Translations under genes and position numbers: made by a program
Part shown: positions 11,222 to 52,899 of the stretch, in pieces
How positions within the stretch are numbered: position 1 is the first letter of the stretch
Layout: the number at the start of each line of letters is the position of its first letter
Notes under the pieces: generated by a model
The model's database searches: none
The model's input: the letters and a program-made list of their open reading frames with translations, nothing else
Told to the model about the DNA's origin: nothing
Origin: Flavobacteriaceae bacterium
GTDB lineage: Bacteria; Bacteroidota; Bacteroidia; Flavobacteriales; Flavobacteriaceae
Reading direction: 5' to 3'
Length of the DNA: 64,000 bases
Assembly: GCA_013373635.1 (NCBI GenBank)
Contig: JABXHN010000016.1
Location: 1-64,000, forward strand

Positions 11222-11608
11222 TTAACGTTTAGAGAACTGGAATTTCTTACGAGCTTTCTTCTGACCGAATTTCTTACGTTCCACCATTCTTGGGTCTCTT
11301 GTAAGTAATCCTTCAGGCTTTAAAGCAGCTCTATTTTCTTCGTTGATTTCACATAAAGCTCTAGAGATCGCTAAGCGAACTGCCTCAGCTTGTCCTGTGA
11401 TACCACCACCAAATACATTTACTTTTACATCGTAAGACCCTTCAGTCTCAGTAAGTGCAAACGGTTGGTTAATTTTGTATTGTAAGGTTGCAGTAGTGAA
11501 GTAATCTGCTACGTCTTTTTTGTTGATAGTGATGTTTCCTTTTCCTTCTGAAAGGTATACACGAGCAACAGCTGTTTTTCTTCTACCGATTTTGTGAACT
11601 ACTCCCAT
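11222..11608 (-). CDS. rpsI: 30S ribosomal protein S9
   Basis: S9 is a small-subunit head protein whose basic C-terminal tail reaches the P-site tRNA. The 128-residue protein has the family start [12 protein letters not shown], the central [15 protein letters not shown], and the tail [12 protein letters not shown]. Its start overlaps the rplM stop by one base (TAATG), the conserved rplM-rpsI pair. Confidence 0.99.
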
Positions 11609-12063
11609 TACCTAAAATCTTTTAAATTAATTACTGTAGGTTTTTGTGCTTCTTGACCGTGCTCAGCTCCAGCGTAAACTTTTAAGTTTCTGTAAATAGC
11701 AGAACCTAATTTGTTTTTTGGTAACATTCCTTTTACCGCTTTTTCAACTAAACCAATTGGATTCTTCTCCATTAATTCAGTAGCAGTTAACGAACGTTGA
11801 CCACCTGGATATCCAGTGTGACGGATATAGGTCTTATTTTGCATTTTGGTTCCTGTAAGTTGAACCTTCTCTGCATTTATAACAATAACGTTATCACCAC
11901 AATCTACATGAGGTGTAAAGTTTGGCTTGTTTTTTCCTCTAAGGATGATTGCAACTTTAGATGCTAATCTTCCTAATGTTTCTCCTTCGGCATCAACTAA
12001 CACCCACTGCTTTTCAACGGTGTTTTTATTGGCAGAAACTGTCTTGTAACTTAATGTGTCCAC
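11608..12063 (-). CDS. rplM: 50S ribosomal protein L13
   Basis: L13 is an early-assembly protein of the large subunit. The 151-residue protein contains [13 protein letters not shown], the [17 protein letters not shown] strand region and HTGYPGG, all family marks. It is the first gene of rplM-rpsI(-rpsB-tsf), and a near-consensus promoter lies 47 bases upstream. Confidence 0.99.
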
Positions 12064-12109
12064 ACTGATTAATTTATATATTAAACACGATTTCCCTATA
12101 AACGGGGTG

Positions 12110-12140
12110 CAAATGTAAGTATATTTGTTTGAATACCAAA
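12110..12140 (-). promoter_or_regulatory. Promoter of rplM-rpsI
   Basis: On the minus strand TTTG (12140-12137) is followed after exactly 19 bases by TACATTTG (12117-12110). This matches the Bacteroidota primary-sigma promoter TTTG-N19-TAnnTTTG. The predicted start of transcription gives a leader of roughly 40 bases before rplM. Confidence 0.85.
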
Positions 12141-12200
12141 TGTGTTTTTAGGAAAAAATAAAAAAAATTGCTCAAAAAGTTTTCTCTTTAACTATTCCTC

Positions 12201-15041
12201 TTAGTGAGCTTGAAGCCAATTGTCTCCATAACCCATATCGACAATCAGTGGAACAGAAAGTTTAAAGGCATTTTCCATTTCCTTTTTAATCAGTGGAGCA
12301 AGGGTATCTCGCTCTTCTTTATGCATATCAAAAACCAATTCATCGTGAACTTGAAGAAGCATCTTCGTTTTGTAGTTTCCTTCCTCTAATAATTTGTGAA
12401 TCTGAATCATTGCAATTTTAATAATATCAGCAGCTGAACCCTGGATAGGGGCATTGATAGCATTACGCTCTGCTGCACCTCTTACAATTGCATTGTTGTT
12501 ATTGATGTCTTTTAAATAACGTCTTCTTCCTAGTACGGTACTAACATATCCGTGATCTCTTGCGAAATTGACCTGATTGTTCATATAGGCTCTGAGTTTT
12601 GGATAGGTCTGGTAATAAGTGTCGATCAGTTCTTTTGCTTCACTTCTGCTCAGCTCAGTTTGATTGGAGAGCCCAAATGCAGAAACTCCATAGATGATAC
12701 CAAAATTAACCGTCTTAGCGTTGGAACGCTGCTCTCTGGTTACCTCCTCAATTGGAATCCCAAATACCTGTGCAGCAGTTGATGCGTGAATATCTTCTCC
12801 CCTTTGAAAGGATTCAATCATAGTCGTCTCTTCAGAAAGGGCAGCGATGATTCTAAGTTCTATTTGAGAGTAATCGGCAGCCATAAGGATGAAGTCCTCA
12901 TTTCTAGGAATGAAGGCCTTGCGAATCTGTCTACCTCGTTCGGTTCGAATAGGAATATTTTGGAGGTTTGGATTAATAGAACTCAATCGACCAGTAGCTG
13001 CTACAGTTTGAGAGTACTCTGTGTGAACTCTATTGGTTTTAGGATTGATTTGCTCTGGCAGTGCATCTACATAGGTGCTCTTTAGTTTAGATAATCCTCT
13101 ATATTCTATAACATTAGAGACGATCTCGTGATCTTTTGCGAGAAAGGAGAGGACATCTTCTGCGGTAGAATACTGACCCGTTTTGGTCTTTTTGGGTTTG
13201 TCGACTAAATTGAGTTTTTCGAATAGGATATCACCTAATTGTTTAGGAGAACTGATATTAAATTCTTCACCTGCTAACTCGTATATTTTTTTCTCTAGAT
13301 TTAAAATATCTTGATTGAGGTCTTGCTTTAAGTTGTTTAAAAAGTCAACATCCAAATTGATGCCCTCAATTTCCATTGAAGACAACACCATAAGTAGTGG
13401 TAATTCAATATCATTGTAGAGCTTAAGAGTATCGGCTTCCTTTAATTCTGTTTGAAAATGTTCAGAAAGTTGTAAGCTTAAATCTGCCAATTCGCAACAA
13501 TAGGTGGTCTGCTTTTCAATAGGAGATTCGCTTATAGTGATTTTCGAACGCCCCTTTCCTATAAGATCTTCTAAACTCATAGGGCTGTAATTTAAATAGG
13601 TTTCACTCAAGACTGTTAGGTCGTGTCTCATATCGGGGTTGACCAAATAATGAGCAAGTGAACTGTCGAATATCGGAGCAGCTAATTTGAGTTGATAATT
13701 GTGTAAATGTTTTGCATCCGCTTTGAGTTGGTGACCTAACTTTACTATGGAAGTATCTAAAAAGAAGTTCTTCAGATAACTGAGTTTTTTTTCAGCTTGA
13801 ACTCGATCTTTATCAATAGGGATGTAGTAGCCTTTGTGAGCTTCCCAAGAAAAGGATATTCCGATGAGATTTGCTTGAAGGGGGTCAGGATGATCACTCA
13901 AACAAGCAAAAGCTACCTTTTGTTGTTTTGACAATTTATCTACGAATAATTCTAATGCAAACTCACTGTCGATCAATTGATATAGATGTGCGCTGTCAAC
14001 TGCACTTTTGCGACTGCTGAATACTTCTGTTTCAGCAGTAGCATTTCCCGCAGAATCAAAAAGCGAAAATTGTCCGGCTCCAGCTGAAGTAGCTTTTGTT
14101 TCGATTGGCTTTGATTCAATTGACGATTCCGAGACAGAAGATTCTGATTCTGAAGATTTATAGAAGAGTTTTAAGAACTGTTCTGTGAGTCTTCTAAATT
14201 CTAACTCTTCAAAGATTTCTTGAACCTTTTGACTGTCAGGCTCTGATAGTTCGAATGATTTCTCATCAAAAGTCACATCGCAATTCAGATTGATGGTCGC
14301 CAATTCTTTAGAGAGGAGACCTAATTCTTTGTTTTCCTCAATGCGTTCTTTCATTTTTCCTTTGAGCTCATGAGTGTTAGCTAAAAGGCCTTCCATAGAA
14401 CCGTAGGTTTCAATGAATTTCTTTGCGGTCTTATCTCCAACTCCAGGAAGTCCAGGGATGTTATCACTAGCATCTCCCATCATCCCTAAATAATCGATCA
14501 CCTGCTCAGGTGTTTGAACCCCAAAACGGTTTTGTACCTCAGGGATTCCCCAAATTTCAATTCCATTTCCCATTCGAGCTGGGCGATACATAAATATGTT
14601 TTCAGAAACCAATTGACCAAAGTCTTTATCTGGTGTCACCATAAAGACTTCGTAGTTTTCTTTTTCAGCCTGTTTTGCTAATGTTCCTATAAGGTCATCA
14701 GCTTCCATCCCTTCTTGTTCAATAATTGGAATATTCATTCCCTCGAGTATTTGATGAATATAGGGAACGGCAATTTTTATTGCATCAGGAGTTGCAGCTC
14801 TATTAGCCTTGTATTCAGGAAAAATGGCAATACGTTCACTACTTCCTCCTTTGTCAAAACAAACTGCTAAATGATCAGGTTTTTCCCTTTTAATGACATC
14901 AAATAGCGAATTCATAAACCCCAATATAGCTGAGGTATCCATTCCTTTTGAATTGATTCTTGGGTTTTTTATAAGTGCGTAGTATCCTCTAAAAATAAGT
15001 GCGTAGGCATCTACGAGAAAAAGTCTTTTTTTGTCTGACAT
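12201..15041 (-). CDS. polA: DNA polymerase I with apparently inactive proofreading domain
   Basis: PolA fills gaps in repair and replaces Okazaki primers. The 946-residue protein has a 5' nuclease domain (1-290) with its acidic residues intact (VDAYALIFRGYYA, EADD, TPDKD, GDASDNIPG), then a serine-rich linker (about 296-345), an exonuclease-like domain (about 350-530) and a polymerase domain with motif A (DYSQIELR, D723), motif B (RSNAKTVNFGIIYG) and motif C (VHDEL, D900). In the proofreading domain, the expected DTE reads ACL (379-381) and the D of YAxED reads L518; only the acid at D442 remains. Proofreading should be absent. It starts after a 67-base gap from the upstream glycosylasparaginase gene. 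Confidence 0.97.
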   Translation of the reverse strand: MSDKKRLFLVDAYALIFRGYYALIKNPRINSKGMDTSAILGFMNSLFDVIKREKPDHLAVCFDKGGSSERIAIFPEYKANRAATPDAIKIAVPYIHQILEGMNIPIIEQEGMEADDLIGTLAKQAEKENYEVFMVTPDKDFGQLVSENIFMYRPARMGNGIEIWGIPEVQNRFGVQTPEQVIDYLGMMGDASDNIPGLPGVGDKTAKKFIETYGSMEGLLANTHELKGKMKERIEENKELGLLSKELATINLNCDVTFDEKSFELSEPDSQKVQEIFEELEFRRLTEQFLKLFYKSSESESSVSESSIESKPIETKATSAGAGQFSLFDSAGNATAETEVFSSRKSAVDSAHLYQLIDSEFALELFVDKLSKQQKVAFACLSDHPDPLQANLIGISFSWEAHKGYYIPIDKDRVQAEKKLSYLKNFFLDTSIVKLGHQLKADAKHLHNYQLKLAAPIFDSSLAHYLVNPDMRHDLTVLSETYLNYSPMSLEDLIGKGRSKITISESPIEKQTTYCCELADLSLQLSEHFQTELKEADTLKLYNDIELPLLMVLSSMEIEGINLDVDFLNNLKQDLNQDILNLEKKIYELAGEEFNISSPKQLGDILFEKLNLVDKPKKTKTGQYSTAEDVLSFLAKDHEIVSNVIEYRGLSKLKSTYVDALPEQINPKTNRVHTEYSQTVAATGRLSSINPNLQNIPIRTERGRQIRKAFIPRNEDFILMAADYSQIELRIIAALSEETTMIESFQRGEDIHASTAAQVFGIPIEEVTREQRSNAKTVNFGIIYGVSAFGLSNQTELSRSEAKELIDTYYQTYPKLRAYMNNQVNFARDHGYVSTVLGRRRYLKDINNNNAIVRGAAERNAINAPIQGSAADIIKIAMIQIHKLLEEGNYKTKMLLQVHDELVFDMHKEERDTLAPLIKKEMENAFKLSVPLIVDMGYGDNWLQAH

Positions 15042-45693: not shown

Positions 45694-48600
45694 TTGAAAC
45701 GAATTAATTTTAAATATATAAAACCCTTGTGTTTTATACTTGTCTTCTTTGCTGTAAAGAATAAGTTATCGGCTCAGGAGCAAGAAACTGTTCAAGATAG
45801 TACAGCAGCAGTTCTTCGTTCAATCAAGATGAAACTCCCCAGCGGGATTACTTCTAAATACGTCTATAATGCTGAGGAAAATTACTATGAGTTCACTCAA
45901 CCTATAGCAGGTTATGAGTTGGGCTATCCTCTTATTTTAAGTCCAGAAGAGTATTGGGAACTGGTGAGAAAGGAATCGACTCAATCCTACTTTAGAGAAA
46001 AACAACAGCTCTATGAAAATCAATCGAATAAAAATCAATCTGCTCTAAAGAATATCCTCCCTAATTTTAGATTAAACAGCGATGTGTTGGAGACCATTTT
46101 CGGTGGAGATGAAATCAGCTTGATTCCTCAGGGATCTATTGCAGTGGATATGGGAGTGCTTTGGCAAAAGAATGACAATCCATCCCTATCTCCTAGAAAC
46201 AGATCCAATCTTTCTTTTGATTTTGATCAGCAAATACGTTTGGGAATGGTCGGTAAAATTGGAGAACGGCTCTCTATTAACGCCAATTACGACACTCAGG
46301 CAACTTTTGATTTTCAGAATCTCATAAAAATCTCCTACAATCCACCAACGGTTCAAGATGTAACAGGTATTGATATGTCTGGAATCAATACCCAAGATCC
46401 ACTTTCTAATGTGGGTAATATGTTTAAGTCAAACGAGGATAATATCTTACAGAACATCGAAGTGGGAAATATATCGATGCCACTGACGAGTTCACTAATT
46501 CAAGGAGCTCAAAGTCTTTTTGGTTTAAAGACGGAGATGAAATTTGGAAGAACTCGAGTGACAACGGTATTATCGGAGCAAAGATCTCAAAACAACTCAG
46601 TGGTTGCTCAAGGAGGTGGAACCATCAGTGATTTTAATTTAACTGCATTGGATTACGAGGAAGATCGACACTTTTTCTTATCTCACTTTTTTAGAGATCA
46701 ATACGATGAGGCTTTAGAAAATTACCCTTATGTCAACTCACAGGTTCAGATTACACGTATTGAAGTTTGGATGACCAATCGAGTACAGAGAACTAACAAT
46801 GTTAGAAACATAGTAGCCTTACAAGATTTAGGAGAATCCAATCCTAATAATAGTGTAATCGGAAGACATCCCAATACTCCTTCGGGATTCTTTAACACGC
46901 CTACGGCTCCTTATTTGCCATCAAACAATGCCAATGATTACGATCCGGAGCAAATTGGAATTGGTGGAGCGCTATTGGATCAAATTCGAGATATTGCAAC
47001 TGCACCACAAGCGTTTAATACTCCTGGATATAAAATTAATCCTGGTTTTGATTATGCGGTTATTGAAAATGCTCATAAATTGGAAGAGGGAAGGGATTAT
47101 TTTATCGATACACAATTGGGGTATATTTCTCTAACCCAACGATTGAGTGCTGACGAAATACTAGCCGTTGCCTTTCAGTATACCTATAATGGAAAGGTGT
47201 ATCAAGTAGGTGAGTTTGCCAATGGAGGAGTAGAGTCAACCTCTGTAACCAATGCCAATGAGCAAACTGCATTGCAGAACAATGCACTTATATTAAAACT
47301 TTTAAAGAGTAATATCACCTCTGTTAAAGATCCTATTTGGGATTTGATGATGAAGAATATTTATCCAACTGGGGCTTATTCACTATCAGAAGAAGATTTT
47401 AAATTTAACATCATCTATGCGAATCCTAGTCCGAGAAACTATATCACTCCCATAGATTCTAGTTTTGGTCAGGGATGGCCAACTAGCCCAAAGCCATTAG
47501 AAGAAAGAACACTGCTGAACGTCTTTAATTTTGACCGTCTCAATGGTTACAACGATGTTCAAGAAGAAGGAGATGGATTCTTTGATTTTATCCCAAATAG
47601 AACTATCAACCTAAGAACAGGATCGATCATCTTTACCAAGGTTGAGCCTTTTGGAGAATACCTATTTGAGTTACTCGGAGGTGGAACTTATGATGTTGAG
47701 AACGATCAGGGTTATACAGCCAACCAAAAGCAATACGTTTATCGAGAACTCTATTCTCAAACCAAGGCCTCTGCTTTTGAAAAGGCAGAAAAGAATAAAT
47801 TCTTACTAAAAGGACAGTATAAATCAGCGAGTTCCAATGGAATTCCAATAGGCGCTTTTAATGTACCAAGAGGTTCTGTTAGAGTGACAGTAGGTAGAAG
47901 AATATTAGTAGAAGGTGTTGACTATACCGTCAATTATCAATTGGGAACGGTTCAACTCTTAGACCCTTCGCTCGAGGCTTCTAATGCACCTATTAAAATA
48001 TCAGTTGAGGACAATGCTGTTTTTGGACAACAGAACAAACGCTTTTCTGGAATTAATATCACCCATGAATTTAGTGATAAATTCATTATCGGAGGAACCT
48101 ATCTGAACCTCAATGAGCGTCCTTTAACACAAAAGTCAAGTTATGGAATCGAACCTGTTAACAACTCTATTTACGGATTTAATCTGATTTATTCATCAGA
48201 GGTTCCATTTTTAACAAGATTAGCTAATAAGCTTCCCAATGTAGAAACTCAGGCCCCCTCTAATATTTCACTTAGAGCTGAGATGGCTACTTTAAAACCA
48301 GGAACACCGAAATTTGCAGATTTTGAAGGGGAGTCGACGACCTATATCGATGATTTTGAAGGAGCGCAAACACTGATTGATATCAGAGGTTCTTTAGGTT
48401 GGTCTTTAGCTAGTACTCCTTTGGAGTTTGGTGATGGTTCTGATACCCTCTTTGGAAATTCGCCAACAGATGAGGATAACCTTAAAAACGGCTATGGAAG
48501 AGCTAAAATGGCTTGGTATTCTATCGATCCAATTTTTTATTCTTTTCAAAGACCAGACGGTATTACGAATAACGATTTATCTACCAATCCAACCAGAAGA

Positions 48601-51600
48601 ATTTATATTGATGAGGTCTTCCCTCAAGTCGATATCGCTCAAGGACAGACGACTGTTCAAACAACCCTTGATTTAAATTATTATCCACAGGAAAAAGGCC
48701 CTTATAACAACAATGGTTCTTTTAGCAGTTTAAATGAAGACGATCGTTGGGCTGGTATCATGAGACCGATGAGTACGACTAACTTTGAAAATGCTAATGT
48801 TGAATTTATTCAATTCTGGCTACTGGATCCATATGTAGATGGAATAGCTACCGATCCAGGAACGCTCGTTTTCAATTTAGGAAATATATCAGAGGACATT
48901 TTAAAAGACGGTAAAAAACAATATGAAAACGGATTGCCAGATACTTCTGGGACAGCGATTACTTCAAATACCTCCTGGGGTAAGGTTCCCGCAAGTCAAT
49001 CACTGTTGTACGCCTTTGATGCAGATGAAGCTAATCGTGCCATTCAGGATGTAGGATTTGATGGTTTAAGCGATAGTGAAGAGGCCGCTATCTATACTAA
49101 TAACCCTTCTTCTGATCCTGCATTGGATAATTACGACTATTACCTCAATAGGTCTGGTTCCATTCTAGAACGCTATAAAGACTTTAACAACCCTGATGGA
49201 AATGCTCCAGTTGCTGTTAGTAATTCCAATAGAGGATCGACAACGCTACCTGATGTTGAGGACATCGATAGAGATTTAACCATGAATACTGTCGATAGTT
49301 ATTTTGAGTATAAGATTGATATCAAGCCCGGCACCAATATCAATGATCCATTTGTAACTGATATCAAAGAACAACTCAGCCCAAAACTACCAAATGGAAA
49401 TCAAGTCAACACCAGATGGATTCAGTATAAAATTCCTCTTTCAGCTTTTACTGATGCTCTTGGGGGAATATCGGATTTTAGATCGATCAGTTTCTTGAGA
49501 ATGTATCTTACAGGTTTTTCTAAGCCTGTAGTATTGCGTTTTGCGACTTTAGATTTAGTTAGAGGAGATTGGAGAAACTACACAAGATCCTTAACTCCAG
49601 ATACAGATGCTGACCCATCCGATGACAATACTCAAATAGACGTCAGTACTGTCAATATTGAAGAAAACAACACTAGACAACCCATTCCTTATGTGTTGCC
49701 TCCTGGAGTAGTACGTGAACAACTCAATAATAACAATACCATCATACGTCAAAATGAGCAATCCTTGTCTTTGGTTGTTAAAAATTTAGAGCCAAAAGAT
49801 TCTAGAGGTGTCTTTAAAAATACTCAGTACGATGTTCGTCAATACAAGCGAATTAAAATGTTTATACACGCTGAAAAGATCGCAAATTCTGATTATGCCT
49901 CAGCTGATAAACCTCTTGTTGGATTCATGAGAATAGGTACGGATTATTCTGAAAACTTCTATCAAGTAGAGGTTCCTTTGAAATTTACAGAGTTCGGCGC
50001 TTCAACTACTCAAGAAATTTGGCCAGCAGAAAATCAAATTGAAATTTCGACAGATATATTAGCAAAGCTCAAATCCAAAGGAATTCAAAATCAAAATTTA
50101 AGCGAGCTGACTTATTACGATCTCATCGGCGATGAGCTTGTAGAGGTTCAGGAGTTTGATCCAAGACCAGAAGGTTCTACCCGTGTTGGGATTCGTGGTA
50201 ATCCTTCGCTTGCGAATATAAGAGGTATTATGGTTGGTGTTAAAAATACTTCCAATGAAATTGCGCGTGGTGAGTTATGGTTTAACGAACTCAGACTCTC
50301 TGGAATGAATAGAGAAGGAGGGTGGGCTGCAATAGCTTCTATGGATCTCAATATGGCCGATGTGATGTCAGTATCTGTTAACGGTTCTAAATCAACTGCT
50401 GGATTTGGTGGAATTGATCAAATGCCAAATGAGCGTTCAAGAGAAGATTTGCAATCGTATGACGTAGTAACTAATCTAAACTTAGGGACCATGCTCCCTT
50501 CCAAATGGGGATTAAAATTACCTATTAATTATTCGATCGCAGAAGAGATGGTAACTCCTAAGTATGATCCCTTGTATGAAGACTTAGAGTTAAGTGATCG
50601 AATTTCAGCAGCTAATAATCAATCAGAAGCTGATCAAATTCTAGAACAATCAGAATCTTATACGAAGAGAAATAGTATCAATTTAATAGGGATTAGAAAA
50701 GAGAAGAATCCTGAAAAAGAAGAGGTTAAAAACCACTTCTTTGATCCAGAAAACCTTACGCTTAATTATTCATACAATCAAACCCAACACAGAGATTTTG
50801 AGGTAGAACACCTCAACGATGAAAATATCAAGGCTGGAGTGATCTATGGATATCAATTTAAACCATTAGCTATAGAGCCTTTTGCTAAGAATGATTCTAT
50901 TTTGAAAAGCGATTATTGGAAATGGTTAAAAGAAGTTAACTTTAACCTACTTCCTTCATCTGTAGCCTTTAACGCTACCTTTGATCGTTCTTTTAACGAG
51001 CAACAATTTAGAGATGTTCAAACCCCTGGAGTTGATGCCTTAGATATGCCGCTCTTGCAACAACGCAATTATTTGTTTAATTGGCAGTATGCAATTCAGC
51101 ATGAGCTTACCAAGTCAATACGACTGAATTTAAACGCTAATTCTAAAAATGTCATTAGAAATTACTTCAATTTAGATGAGGATAAAGATTCAGGAATCAA
51201 TCAAGATTTGACAATTTGGGATGACTTCTTTAACTACGGTAAAGCAGATCGTTTCAATCAACAATTTCAACTGAATTACAAATTGCCATTTGATAAATTC
51301 CCATTCTTGAACTTTATTGATGCTCAATACACCTATACCTCCAATTTTGAATGGAAGAGGGGAGATGAGTCAGTTCGTGAAGTGGCAGGAGGTGAACTCA
51401 ACAATGTTCAAAATTCGAACACTCACAATTTAAATGCTTCGATGACATTTAATAAGTTCTATCGTTATTTAGGTTTAGAAAAGCAATCCAGCGCAGTTAA
51501 TTTCTTGCCAGGTCGTTCAAATGCAAACGGTGGAGCTGGTCAAAATAAAACCCCACTTTGGAAATCCTTAATAACTTCCATTAAGAGAGTTAATGTGAGT

Positions 51601-52899
51601 TACAGTGAAAACAACGGTAAGTTTTTACCTGGATTTACTAGACAAATTGGTTCCTTTGGAACTCGTGAGCCCAGCCTTGGATTTGTTTTTGGGTCTCAAT
51701 CCGACGTTCGTTTTCAGCTCGCTAAACAAGGGTATTTGACAACCTTTGAGAACTTTAATGAGGCTTATGTGTCGAATACCAACAAAAAATTTAAGATAGA
51801 TGCCAATGCGCAACCTATTAAAGATCTGACTATAGATCTGAGTATGGATATGCAGCACTCTTCTAATTACAAGGAGAACTTTAGAGTTGAGGATTTAGGA
51901 AATGGAGATTATCAATATGTGAATATGTTGGGTAATGAGGTTGGAAATTACAATAGGTCTGTCATGATGATTTCAACCTTCTTTAATCAAAGTGATGAGC
52001 TGACTTCTGAATCTTTTGATCAATTTAAAAGCAATCGAATTACTGTTGCCAATCGTTTAGCATCAGGATTATCTCCTGAAGAAGCAGCGTTAATCGATCA
52101 GGATGGATTCCCAGAGCGATACGGTAAAACAGCTCAAGATGTGTTATTACCTGCTTTTATAGCTGCTTACACAGGAAAAGATGCAGCTGCTATTGAATTA
52201 GACCCCTTCAAGGGAATACCACTTCCGAATTGGAACATGAAATACACAGGATTTATGAACCTCAAATGGTTTGAGGATCGATTTAATCGCTTCTCCATTT
52301 CACATGGGTATAGAGCTGCGATGAGTATTAACTCCTATCGTACCAATTTAGAGAAAACCAATACATTGATTGATCCTCGTACAGGAGATTTTAGACCTGA
52401 TAAACTCTATGGTAACTTAGTGTTAACGGATCAATTTAATCCATTGATTCGCGTTGATTTTGAAACCAAGAATGCAATGAGAGTCCTCTTGGAGGTAAAA
52501 ATGGATCGTGCATTATCCATGAGTTTTGACAACAACTTACTCACTGAAATGAATGGAAAGGAAATTACAGCTGGAATAGGATATCGTATTAAAGATGTTC
52601 GATTTAATACCAATTTTGGAGGCTCTCGTACGCAACTAAAAGGTGATTTAAATATCAAAGCTGATTTTAGTCTGCGTGACAATTTAACAGTGATTCGAAA
52701 TCTCGAATTAGACAATACTCAAATCAATGCGGGTCAATACCTGCTATCGACAAAATTATCGGCTGATTACGCTGTCAATAAGAACTTAAACGCGGTCTTC
52801 TTTTACGATTTCAATTCATCTCGTTATGCAGTTTCAACAGCATTTCCACAGCAGACTATTGATACAGGATTTAGACTTAAGTACAATTTTGGAAATTGA
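45694..52899 (+). CDS. sprA: SprA / SOV, the type IX secretion translocon
   Basis: SprA is the giant outer-membrane beta-barrel through which type IX secretion substrates and gliding adhesins leave the cell. The 2401-residue length fits the family (about 2300-2500). I accept the TTG start at 45694 because it directly gives a signal peptide (LKRINFKYIKP, then hydrophobic, end SAQEQ) and no ATG is nearby. The body is rich in beta-strand patterns with repeated SprA motifs, such as FEGAQTLIDIRGSLGW, and ends with an aromatic-containing strand (TGFRLKYNFGN) typical of outer-membrane barrels. It follows maeB-ruvA, the known neighbourhood in Flavobacteria. Confidence 0.97.
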   Translation: MKRINFKYIKPLCFILVFFAVKNKLSAQEQETVQDSTAAVLRSIKMKLPSGITSKYVYNAEENYYEFTQPIAGYELGYPLILSPEEYWELVRKESTQSYFREKQQLYENQSNKNQSALKNILPNFRLNSDVLETIFGGDEISLIPQGSIAVDMGVLWQKNDNPSLSPRNRSNLSFDFDQQIRLGMVGKIGERLSINANYDTQATFDFQNLIKISYNPPTVQDVTGIDMSGINTQDPLSNVGNMFKSNEDNILQNIEVGNISMPLTSSLIQGAQSLFGLKTEMKFGRTRVTTVLSEQRSQNNSVVAQGGGTISDFNLTALDYEEDRHFFLSHFFRDQYDEALENYPYVNSQVQITRIEVWMTNRVQRTNNVRNIVALQDLGESNPNNSVIGRHPNTPSGFFNTPTAPYLPSNNANDYDPEQIGIGGALLDQIRDIATAPQAFNTPGYKINPGFDYAVIENAHKLEEGRDYFIDTQLGYISLTQRLSADEILAVAFQYTYNGKVYQVGEFANGGVESTSVTNANEQTALQNNALILKLLKSNITSVKDPIWDLMMKNIYPTGAYSLSEEDFKFNIIYANPSPRNYITPIDSSFGQGWPTSPKPLEERTLLNVFNFDRLNGYNDVQEEGDGFFDFIPNRTINLRTGSIIFTKVEPFGEYLFELLGGGTYDVENDQGYTANQKQYVYRELYSQTKASAFEKAEKNKFLLKGQYKSASSNGIPIGAFNVPRGSVRVTVGRRILVEGVDYTVNYQLGTVQLLDPSLEASNAPIKISVEDNAVFGQQNKRFSGINITHEFSDKFIIGGTYLNLNERPLTQKSSYGIEPVNNSIYGFNLIYSSEVPFLTRLANKLPNVETQAPSNISLRAEMATLKPGTPKFADFEGESTTYIDDFEGAQTLIDIRGSLGWSLASTPLEFGDGSDTLFGNSPTDEDNLKNGYGRAKMAWYSIDPIFYSFQRPDGITNNDLSTNPTRRIYIDEVFPQVDIAQGQTTVQTTLDLNYYPQEKGPYNNNGSFSSLNEDDRWAGIMRPMSTTNFENANVEFIQFWLLDPYVDGIATDPGTLVFNLGNISEDILKDGKKQYENGLPDTSGTAITSNTSWGKVPASQSLLYAFDADEANRAIQDVGFDGLSDSEEAAIYTNNPSSDPALDNYDYYLNRSGSILERYKDFNNPDGNAPVAVSNSNRGSTTLPDVEDIDRDLTMNTVDSYFEYKIDIKPGTNINDPFVTDIKEQLSPKLPNGNQVNTRWIQYKIPLSAFTDALGGISDFRSISFLRMYLTGFSKPVVLRFATLDLVRGDWRNYTRSLTPDTDADPSDDNTQIDVSTVNIEENNTRQPIPYVLPPGVVREQLNNNNTIIRQNEQSLSLVVKNLEPKDSRGVFKNTQYDVRQYKRIKMFIHAEKIANSDYASADKPLVGFMRIGTDYSENFYQVEVPLKFTEFGASTTQEIWPAENQIEISTDILAKLKSKGIQNQNLSELTYYDLIGDELVEVQEFDPRPEGSTRVGIRGNPSLANIRGIMVGVKNTSNEIARGELWFNELRLSGMNREGGWAAIASMDLNMADVMSVSVNGSKSTAGFGGIDQMPNERSREDLQSYDVVTNLNLGTMLPSKWGLKLPINYSIAEEMVTPKYDPLYEDLELSDRISAANNQSEADQILEQSESYTKRNSINLIGIRKEKNPEKEEVKNHFFDPENLTLNYSYNQTQHRDFEVEHLNDENIKAGVIYGYQFKPLAIEPFAKNDSILKSDYWKWLKEVNFNLLPSSVAFNATFDRSFNEQQFRDVQTPGVDALDMPLLQQRNYLFNWQYAIQHELTKSIRLNLNANSKNVIRNYFNLDEDKDSGINQDLTIWDDFFNYGKADRFNQQFQLNYKLPFDKFPFLNFIDAQYTYTSNFEWKRGDESVREVAGGELNNVQNSNTHNLNASMTFNKFYRYLGLEKQSSAVNFLPGRSNANGGAGQNKTPLWKSLITSIKRVNVSYSENNGKFLPGFTRQIGSFGTREPSLGFVFGSQSDVRFQLAKQGYLTTFENFNEAYVSNTNKKFKIDANAQPIKDLTIDLSMDMQHSSNYKENFRVEDLGNGDYQYVNMLGNEVGNYNRSVMMISTFFNQSDELTSESFDQFKSNRITVANRLASGLSPEEAALIDQDGFPERYGKTAQDVLLPAFIAAYTGKDAAAIELDPFKGIPLPNWNMKYTGFMNLKWFEDRFNRFSISHGYRAAMSINSYRTNLEKTNTLIDPRTGDFRPDKLYGNLVLTDQFNPLIRVDFETKNAMRVLLEVKMDRALSMSFDNNLLTEMNGKEITAGIGYRIKDVRFNTNFGGSRTQLKGDLNIKADFSLRDNLTVIRNLELDNTQINAGQYLLSTKLSADYAVNKNLNAVFFYDFNSSRYAVSTAFPQQTIDTGFRLKYNFGN

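Follow-up and report, generated by a model that had tools for sequence, protein, structure and literature searches.

Repeated replacement of proofreading-site acids in DNA polymerase I of the Flavobacteriaceae

We analysed a stretch of 64,000 nucleotides from a Flavobacteriaceae bacterium (assembly GCA_013373635.1, contig JABXHN010000016.1, positions 1 to 64,000; the window below is this whole stretch) and found that its polA gene (12201..15041, minus strand) encodes a DNA polymerase I (Pol I, PolA; protein P0001, 946 amino acids) in which three of the four metal-ligand acids of the 3'-5' exonuclease (exo) site are replaced. Furthermore, replacements at this site recur in at least 27 of the 237 sampled genera of the family. 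We consider it very likely, on the sequence evidence, that P0001 is a vertically inherited Pol I with a decayed proofreading site, its exo domain retained as a scaffold and the loss recurring under relaxed constraint. Under this hypothesis, the substitutions A379, L381 and L518 would abolish two-metal chemistry; gap filling, primer extension and flap cleavage would persist, but a mismatched 3' end could not be removed, and the exo domain would be retained for its place in the folded large fragment and not for catalysis. The site would have been lost many times in the Flavobacteriaceae as the constraint on it relaxed, which we infer to be a better account than adaptive loss.

The exonuclease site of the window PolA

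The residues of the site were read from a phmmer alignment of P0001 to the Klenow chain 1d8y, which has no gaps at Exo I and Exo III. Within the exo-like domain (residues 350-535, 13437..13994, minus strand, as for all parts of the gene below), A379-C380-L381 at Exo I (13899..13907) replaces D-T-E at Escherichia coli positions 355, 356 and 357, and L518 at Exo III (13488..13490) replaces D501, while D442 at Exo II (13716..13718) and Y514 at Exo III (13500..13502) correspond to E. coli D424 and Y497 and are kept. D355, E357 and D501 are thus all substituted, as the original prediction, made from the DNA letters, had read them. Chain 1d8y itself reads A-T-A at 355-357, and we take it to be the D355A/E357A mutant of Klenow. 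The neighbours of the site are altered too (T382 to S, N438 to Q, Y441 to A and A515 to C), and no displaced replacement acid is visible near Exo I or Exo III in the Klenow alignment, a check made at the level of sequence and not of positions in space. P0001 lacks the full set of D355, E357, D424, D501 and Y497 that a DEDDy proofreading Pol I requires, and combines, as exonuclease-deficient Pol I does, a kept exo fold with replaced metal-ligand acids.

The original prediction had counted two remaining acids, D442 and the aspartate of the FDS motif. The first stands as a metal ligand; the second, D459, is indeed kept but is presumably not among the four DEDD metal ligands, and as it is present in all 50 aligned rows that have lost the site (see below), its role looks structural.

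Next we examined the fold and the other catalytic sites. An AlphaFold2 model built from 26 sequences has a mean pLDDT (predicted local distance difference test score) of 84.9, with the exo domain confidently modelled (ten-residue means above 80 across residues 351-540). In the structural comparison that had been proposed, the model superposes on the whole Klenow fragment (1kfs_A) with a Z score of 41.0 and a root-mean-square deviation of 2.1 A over 585 residues at 46% identity. The 5'-nuclease (flap endonuclease) domain (residues 1-290, 14172..15041) and the polymerase domain (residues 546-946, 12204..13406) have their catalytic residues intact, as predicted: 14 polymerase and 5'-nuclease residues are unchanged in every row with a letter at that place, in rows with a lost and with an intact exo site, and the 5'-nuclease acids D11, D63, E113, D115, D116, D138, D140, D190 and D193 are kept in all rows with a letter there; the catalytic roles of the listed residues are assumed by us.

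With three of the four metal-ligand acids lost and the fold intact, absent proofreading is the expected outcome, and the window PolA very probably lacks it, as had been anticipated. Helicobacter pylori Pol I offers a precedent (PMC3121766, cited here, like the other papers, from excerpts of its text).

Loss of the site recurs across the family

To place the window PolA in its family, we built a profile from 13 intact exo domains and ran it over 397 Flavobacteriaceae genomes. At 1e-10 the profile matched 387 of them, most best E-values lying between about 1e-95 and 1e-107, with a tail of weak matches in addition. In 123 of the 397 genomes we read the exo site, scoring it as lost when any of D355, E357, D424 or D501 was replaced. 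By this measure 48 genomes, falling in 27 of the 237 sampled genera, have lost the site and 75 keep all four acids. The expectation that PolA of this family usually keeps the DTE site is therefore right for most genomes read, and most of those read outside the weak-scoring tail keep the exo site. The suggested alignment across the family shows that the loss is not clade-wide, and the idea of a lineage-specific loss gives way to a recurrent one.

The genomes read came from several samples. Among 67 picked as weak, unmatched or intermediate, 57 were readable (46 lost, 11 not); six had no match at 1e-50, and four (G302, G384, G090 and G212) gave matches too incomplete to be counted. All 33 high-scoring genomes keep the four acids, and 30 weaker or middle scorers, picked by eye among the weaker unread ones and not strictly the weakest, gave one lost and 29 not. 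The window genome itself is counted among the losers, and G005 and G008, of the same genus, among those that are not. Because a single substitution hardly shifts the profile score, 48 is a lower bound. The states of the losers span from one acid replaced (NEDYD in G063) to all four.

For the question of how often INDEPENDENTLY, we used a PolA tree of 116 rows, 51 of them lost, built without residues 291-545. The fewest changes that explain the states are 18, and there are about 19 maximal all-loss clades, one of them a single row (L018) titled Flavobacteriales that groups with outgroup rows. Nineteen of the 135 aligned rows (duplicates, fragments and foreign rows) were dropped from the tree, and the conservation and identity-gap tables used below also drop rows from outside the family. 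We read the changes as losses, since a site with four acids is unlikely to re-form once its states are scrambled.

Beyond the family, one PolA of another family of the same class (L187) is also exo-degenerate, reading E-A-T-R-H at the five positions.

Constraint on the exonuclease-like domain

Relative to the polymerase domain, the exo domain evolves about twice as fast in lineages that have lost the site. In non-overlapping close pairs, the ratio of the nonsynonymous rate (dN) of the exo domain to that of the polymerase domain had a median of 2.20 in 10 loser pairs (1.15-3.75) versus 1.11 in 26 no-loss pairs (0-1.76; one-sided Mann-Whitney, p value 3e-5), and was 2.10 between the window and its sister. 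We also calculated an identity gap, defined as polymerase-domain minus exo-domain identity to rows with intact acids, and found a median of 0.255 in 50 losers (0.111-0.400), 0.279 in the window and 0.049 in 61 others (0.018-0.153).

The fold is less affected. K440, K444, D459 and Y465 are kept in 50 of 50 losers, and L483 and L525 in 98%, while a D remains at position 379 in 12%, at 518 in 10% and at 442 in 44%; Pfam family PF01612 still matches PolA in all 35 losers searched. The exo ratio of dN to the synonymous rate (dS) ranges from 0.046 to 0.21 in the seven of 10 loser pairs for which it could be computed. We infer that the catalytic pocket has been released and the fold core mostly kept, as would be expected of a scaffold.

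Several observations weigh against this reading. D442 and Y514 remain in P0001, so weak residual activity is possible, and in the milder cases, where a single acid has changed or D has become E or N, loss of activity is less certain. An exo dN/dS as low as 0.046 between the window and its relative L002 (dS 1.12) means that some constraint still acts on the domain. Losers and others overlap in their identity gaps, and same-genus rows with intact acids already show raised gaps (0.088-0.153), so that more than the acids must be involved. Nor is the scaffold preserved to the same degree throughout: the exo domains of G160 and G342 are eroded enough that the profile missed both at 1e-10. As for the history, 37 of 113 inner branches of the PolA tree are open, which makes the number of losses approximate, and neither parsimony nor the tree can tell gain from loss. 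Finally, draft assemblies are the only source of the window gene and of its closest relative.

Graded states within the genus of the window

We searched 12 genomes of the same genus, of which one (G001) had no match and one (G004) gave divergent fragments only. All four acids are kept in G005 (isolate LSUCC0859), G006, G008 and G002 (loci L031, L036, L037 and L038) and also in G009 (L034), where Exo I reads DAE. Exo I reads NTE in G003, G007 and G011 (L032, L033 and L035), together with a change of D501 to E in G003 and G007 and to S in G011. The window and G010 (L030) carry ACL together with L at D501. A single clade of the window and the NTE lineages is neither shown nor rejected (approximately unbiased test, p-AU 0.17 with seven rows and 0.40 with the ten genus rows), and as the PolA data leave this question unsettled, we take the series as stages and not as the path of the window lineage.

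Two side observations concern these genomes. L034, with DAE, is nested among NTE relatives with moderate support, as an early or a reverted stage. In G010, an assembly with 7% contamination, contigs C78 and C25 carry divergent family-A polymerase frames (L042 and L044; 26-27% identity) with an exo match on each contig, perhaps phage or foreign DNA.

A clamp-binding-type motif in the linker

The linker between the 5'-nuclease and exo-like domains (residues 291-349, 13995..14171) is mostly disordered, with pLDDT below 50 at residues 296-342, and carries Q324-F-S-L-F328 (14058..14072), a predicted sliding-clamp-binding motif of the QxxLF type. As in clamp clients, the motif thus lies in an accessible, disordered segment. 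A linker QxxLF is present in 107 of 118 PolA rows, whereas shuffled linkers gave a mean of 0.78 and a maximum of 3 (300 shuffles). Linker columns 324, 327 and 328 are conserved at 93, 97 and 96%, most other linker columns at less than 60%. Elsewhere in the protein QxxLF is found in 45 of the 118 rows (43 of these places being an N-terminal QKRLF), so the motif alone proves nothing; what counts is that it is conserved at a single position of an otherwise variable linker. The strict motif is missing from 11 of the 118 rows.

Outside the family, nine order- and class-level samples showed the strict motif in eight and QLSMF in the ninth, and the linker of L187 keeps QLSMF; in other classes of the phylum, outside class Bacteroidia, the motif was present in 10 of 46 samples. 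E. coli Pol I does not have the linker motif. In the window genome, similar motifs are found in DnaE (QVSLF) and in a UmuC-like protein (QLNLF), and MutS has no clamp-type motif.

The motif is present in 59 of 61 intact-acid rows and 44 of 50 losers, and in its looser form is missing from 6 of 50 losers versus 2 of 61 others (p value 0.14). Being about equally common with an intact and a lost site, it does not predict loss. One could hypothesize that Pol I of class Bacteroidia is constitutively clamp-tethered via the linker QxxLF and that such a built-in tether, by removing one cost of losing the 3' exonuclease, permitted the repeated losses in Flavobacteriaceae. We regard this combined proposal as rather unlikely and its causal link as speculation. 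Tether and repeated loss are separable claims, and the commonness of exo-dead Pol I in other phyla speaks against connecting them. In E. coli, a template-loaded clamp makes nick translation by 3'-exo-minus Pol I broadly like that of the wild type (PMC6010275), and a table in PMC11139829 counts E. coli Pol I among the clamp partners on the evidence of native polyacrylamide gel electrophoresis (PAGE); this hints that a built-in tether might ease the loss of proofreading. PolA2 has been called the first A-family polymerase with a clamp motif identified (PMC12926913), and a 2025 paper names a highly conserved clamp-binding motif, QLxLF, in Bacillus subtilis Pol I (PMC12309361), for which reason we dropped the notion that such a motif is wholly new in Pol I. 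We found no report of it for Bacteroidia Pol I in the open-licence literature.

Alternative explanations

Next we examined whether the loss could be adaptive, a Pol I without proofreading extending mismatches, bypassing lesions and substituting for a translesion polymerase, as has been proposed for H. pylori. The only Y-family match in the window genome (G000, contig C4, 18724-19158) is UmuC-like by score and length and none is DinB-like, the split between these labels being our own and their names presumed; the same-genus G005 differs in having a DinB-like gene. Across genomes, a DinB-like gene is absent from 18 of 35 losers versus 3 of 38 no-loss genomes (Fisher test, p value 6e-5; G027, with a partial Y-family match, is counted as DinB-lacking, and G365 and G063 had no match). 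In addition, the proofreading-deficient Pol I of H. pylori can pass both thymine glycol and an abasic analogue (PMC3121766), and a link between Y-family polymerases (PolY) and exo-dead Pol I is left open in the excerpts of PMC12926913. However, 17 of the 35 losers retain a DinB-like gene, genome size is a confounder (below 2.75 Mb in 19 of 35 losers versus 7 of 38 others), and the comparison genomes were drawn mostly from high scorers. Furthermore, the supported branches give only six independent pairs, with a median sign-test p value of 1. The raw association is strong, but as it was not shown after allowing for relatedness, we did not retain DinB loss as the driver and consider adaptive loss quite unlikely. 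Loss of mismatch repair alongside the exo site was rejected, as MutS scored above the cut-off in all 42 genomes searched (35 of them losers), and the window genome has MutS.

Slightly less probable again is proofreading in trans by another DEDD exonuclease, which would make the PolA site redundant. RNase_T (DnaQ-like) matches number three in the window genome; one of them forms a fused N-terminal part of DnaE, and its acids, judged by eye, are intact. Nine of 35 losers and 5 of 38 others have additional PF01612 matches. These are, however, weak or partial and present in both groups, and that of the window genome is the RNase_T gene of contig C34; these counts give no clear sign that a stand-alone DEDDy exonuclease was gained with the loss. 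The N-terminal domain of DnaE (L143, L204; contig C4) shows DTE, D and HxxxxD by eye, which we take to be the DnaQ-type motifs, so that replicative proofreading appears intact while that of Pol I does not.

As a side observation, the PHP region of the same DnaE reads NNTYY where we would presumably expect N-D-x-H-Y, and the PHP site may be inactive.

It is very unlikely that the exo site is still active with a rearranged set of metal ligands, made up of D442, Y514 and acids close by, D383 and E517 among them. D442, Y514, E517 and D520 do remain and the fold is confidently predicted, but D383, the acid nearest to Exo I, aligns with the ordinary E. coli D359, and E517 with the E of E. coli YAAED, so neither is new; moreover, fewer than half of the losers keep D442, and the neighbours of the site have changed as well. 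An assembly or annotation artefact has a negligible probability despite a draft source (97 contigs, 3% estimated contamination), given an open frame, dN/dS well below 1, conserved synteny and a second, 94%-identical assembly (L002 and L030) with the same substitutions.

Gene setting

The polA frame, with an ATG start and no internal stops, scores 1129 bits with PRK05755 (cut-off 720) and 998 bits with TIGR00593 (cut-off 600) in NCBIfam. Its Pfam domains are 5_3_exonuc_N, 5_3_exonuc, DNA_pol_A_exo1 and DNA_pol_A. With FEN-like 5' nuclease, exo-like and family A polymerase domains and an equivalog score above the cut-off, P0001 is a PolA1. A second, proofreading-capable PolA in the genome was rejected, as a genome-wide search of the 2.53 Mb assembly gave a single PolA match.

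The gene is flanked by an asparaginase-like gene on one side and by rplM/rpsI on the other, names that come from reading the sequence, with no family search run. An asparaginase-like gene adjoins polA in 8 of 28 fetched named loci, including that of LSUCC0859, whose exo site is intact, and this shared neighbour indicates that the window polA is a vertical orthologue. The spacing from polA to the rplM that follows it (window 11608-12201) is about 140 bp in the window and L002 and about 2.9 kb in L003, L004, L006 and L029. Elsewhere the window holds an open frame of 2401 amino acids with a TTG start (45694-52899, plus strand).

Discussion

Exo-dead Pol I is already well known from H. pylori, Firmicutes and Actinobacteria, and what the present case adds is that, within a single family, the loss is shallow, recurrent and graded, together with a conserved linker motif. 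Thermus PolA likewise has a non-catalytic exo-like domain beside an active polymerase; the window domain is near full length and that of Taq is shortened. In the open-licence literature we found no earlier description of recurrent loss of the PolA exonuclease in Flavobacteriaceae.

The closest parallel is H. pylori Pol I, in which the 5' nuclease and polymerase are active, the exo fold is thought to be kept and metal acids are missing; the purified enzyme, without D355, D424 and D501, shows lesion bypass and no mismatch editing (PMC3121766). The window PolA differs in keeping D424 and in also losing E357, and its genome, unlike that of H. pylori, described as having no translesion polymerases, keeps one Y-family gene. 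It also resembles the exo-inactive PolA1 of Firmicutes, Tenericutes and Actinobacteria, where DEDDy substitutions are found in a canonical three-domain Pol I, and about half of the bacterial PolA1 surveyed are exo-inactive (PMC12926913). Whereas the losses in that survey are, as excerpted, largely phylum-specific, those reported here are repeated and shallow within one family.

Likewise, the actinobacterial PolA2/APEX combines a dead exonuclease with QxxLF in a disordered stretch (PMC12926913). Unlike P0001, however, PolA2 has no 5' nuclease and carries its motif in a loop of a vestigial exo domain, not in an inter-domain linker. P0001 is no PolA2/APEX, as its 5' nuclease is present and its named relatives are mostly Flavobacteriaceae, not Actinobacteria. 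B. subtilis Pol I, from a different phylum, shares the presence of a clamp-type motif (PMC12309361).

According to a 2026 survey, proofreading by Pol I is often dispensable for a reason left unsettled (PMC12926913), and a review from 2024 treats the use of the clamp by Pol I during Okazaki fragment maturation as an open question (PMC11253446). The conserved clamp-type motif described here bears on that second question. Relatives with intact, half-eroded and fully eroded sites and unchanged other catalytic residues, among them the named isolate LSUCC0859 with an intact site, provide a natural experiment for the effects of Pol I proofreading on fidelity, mutation spectrum and lesion bypass.

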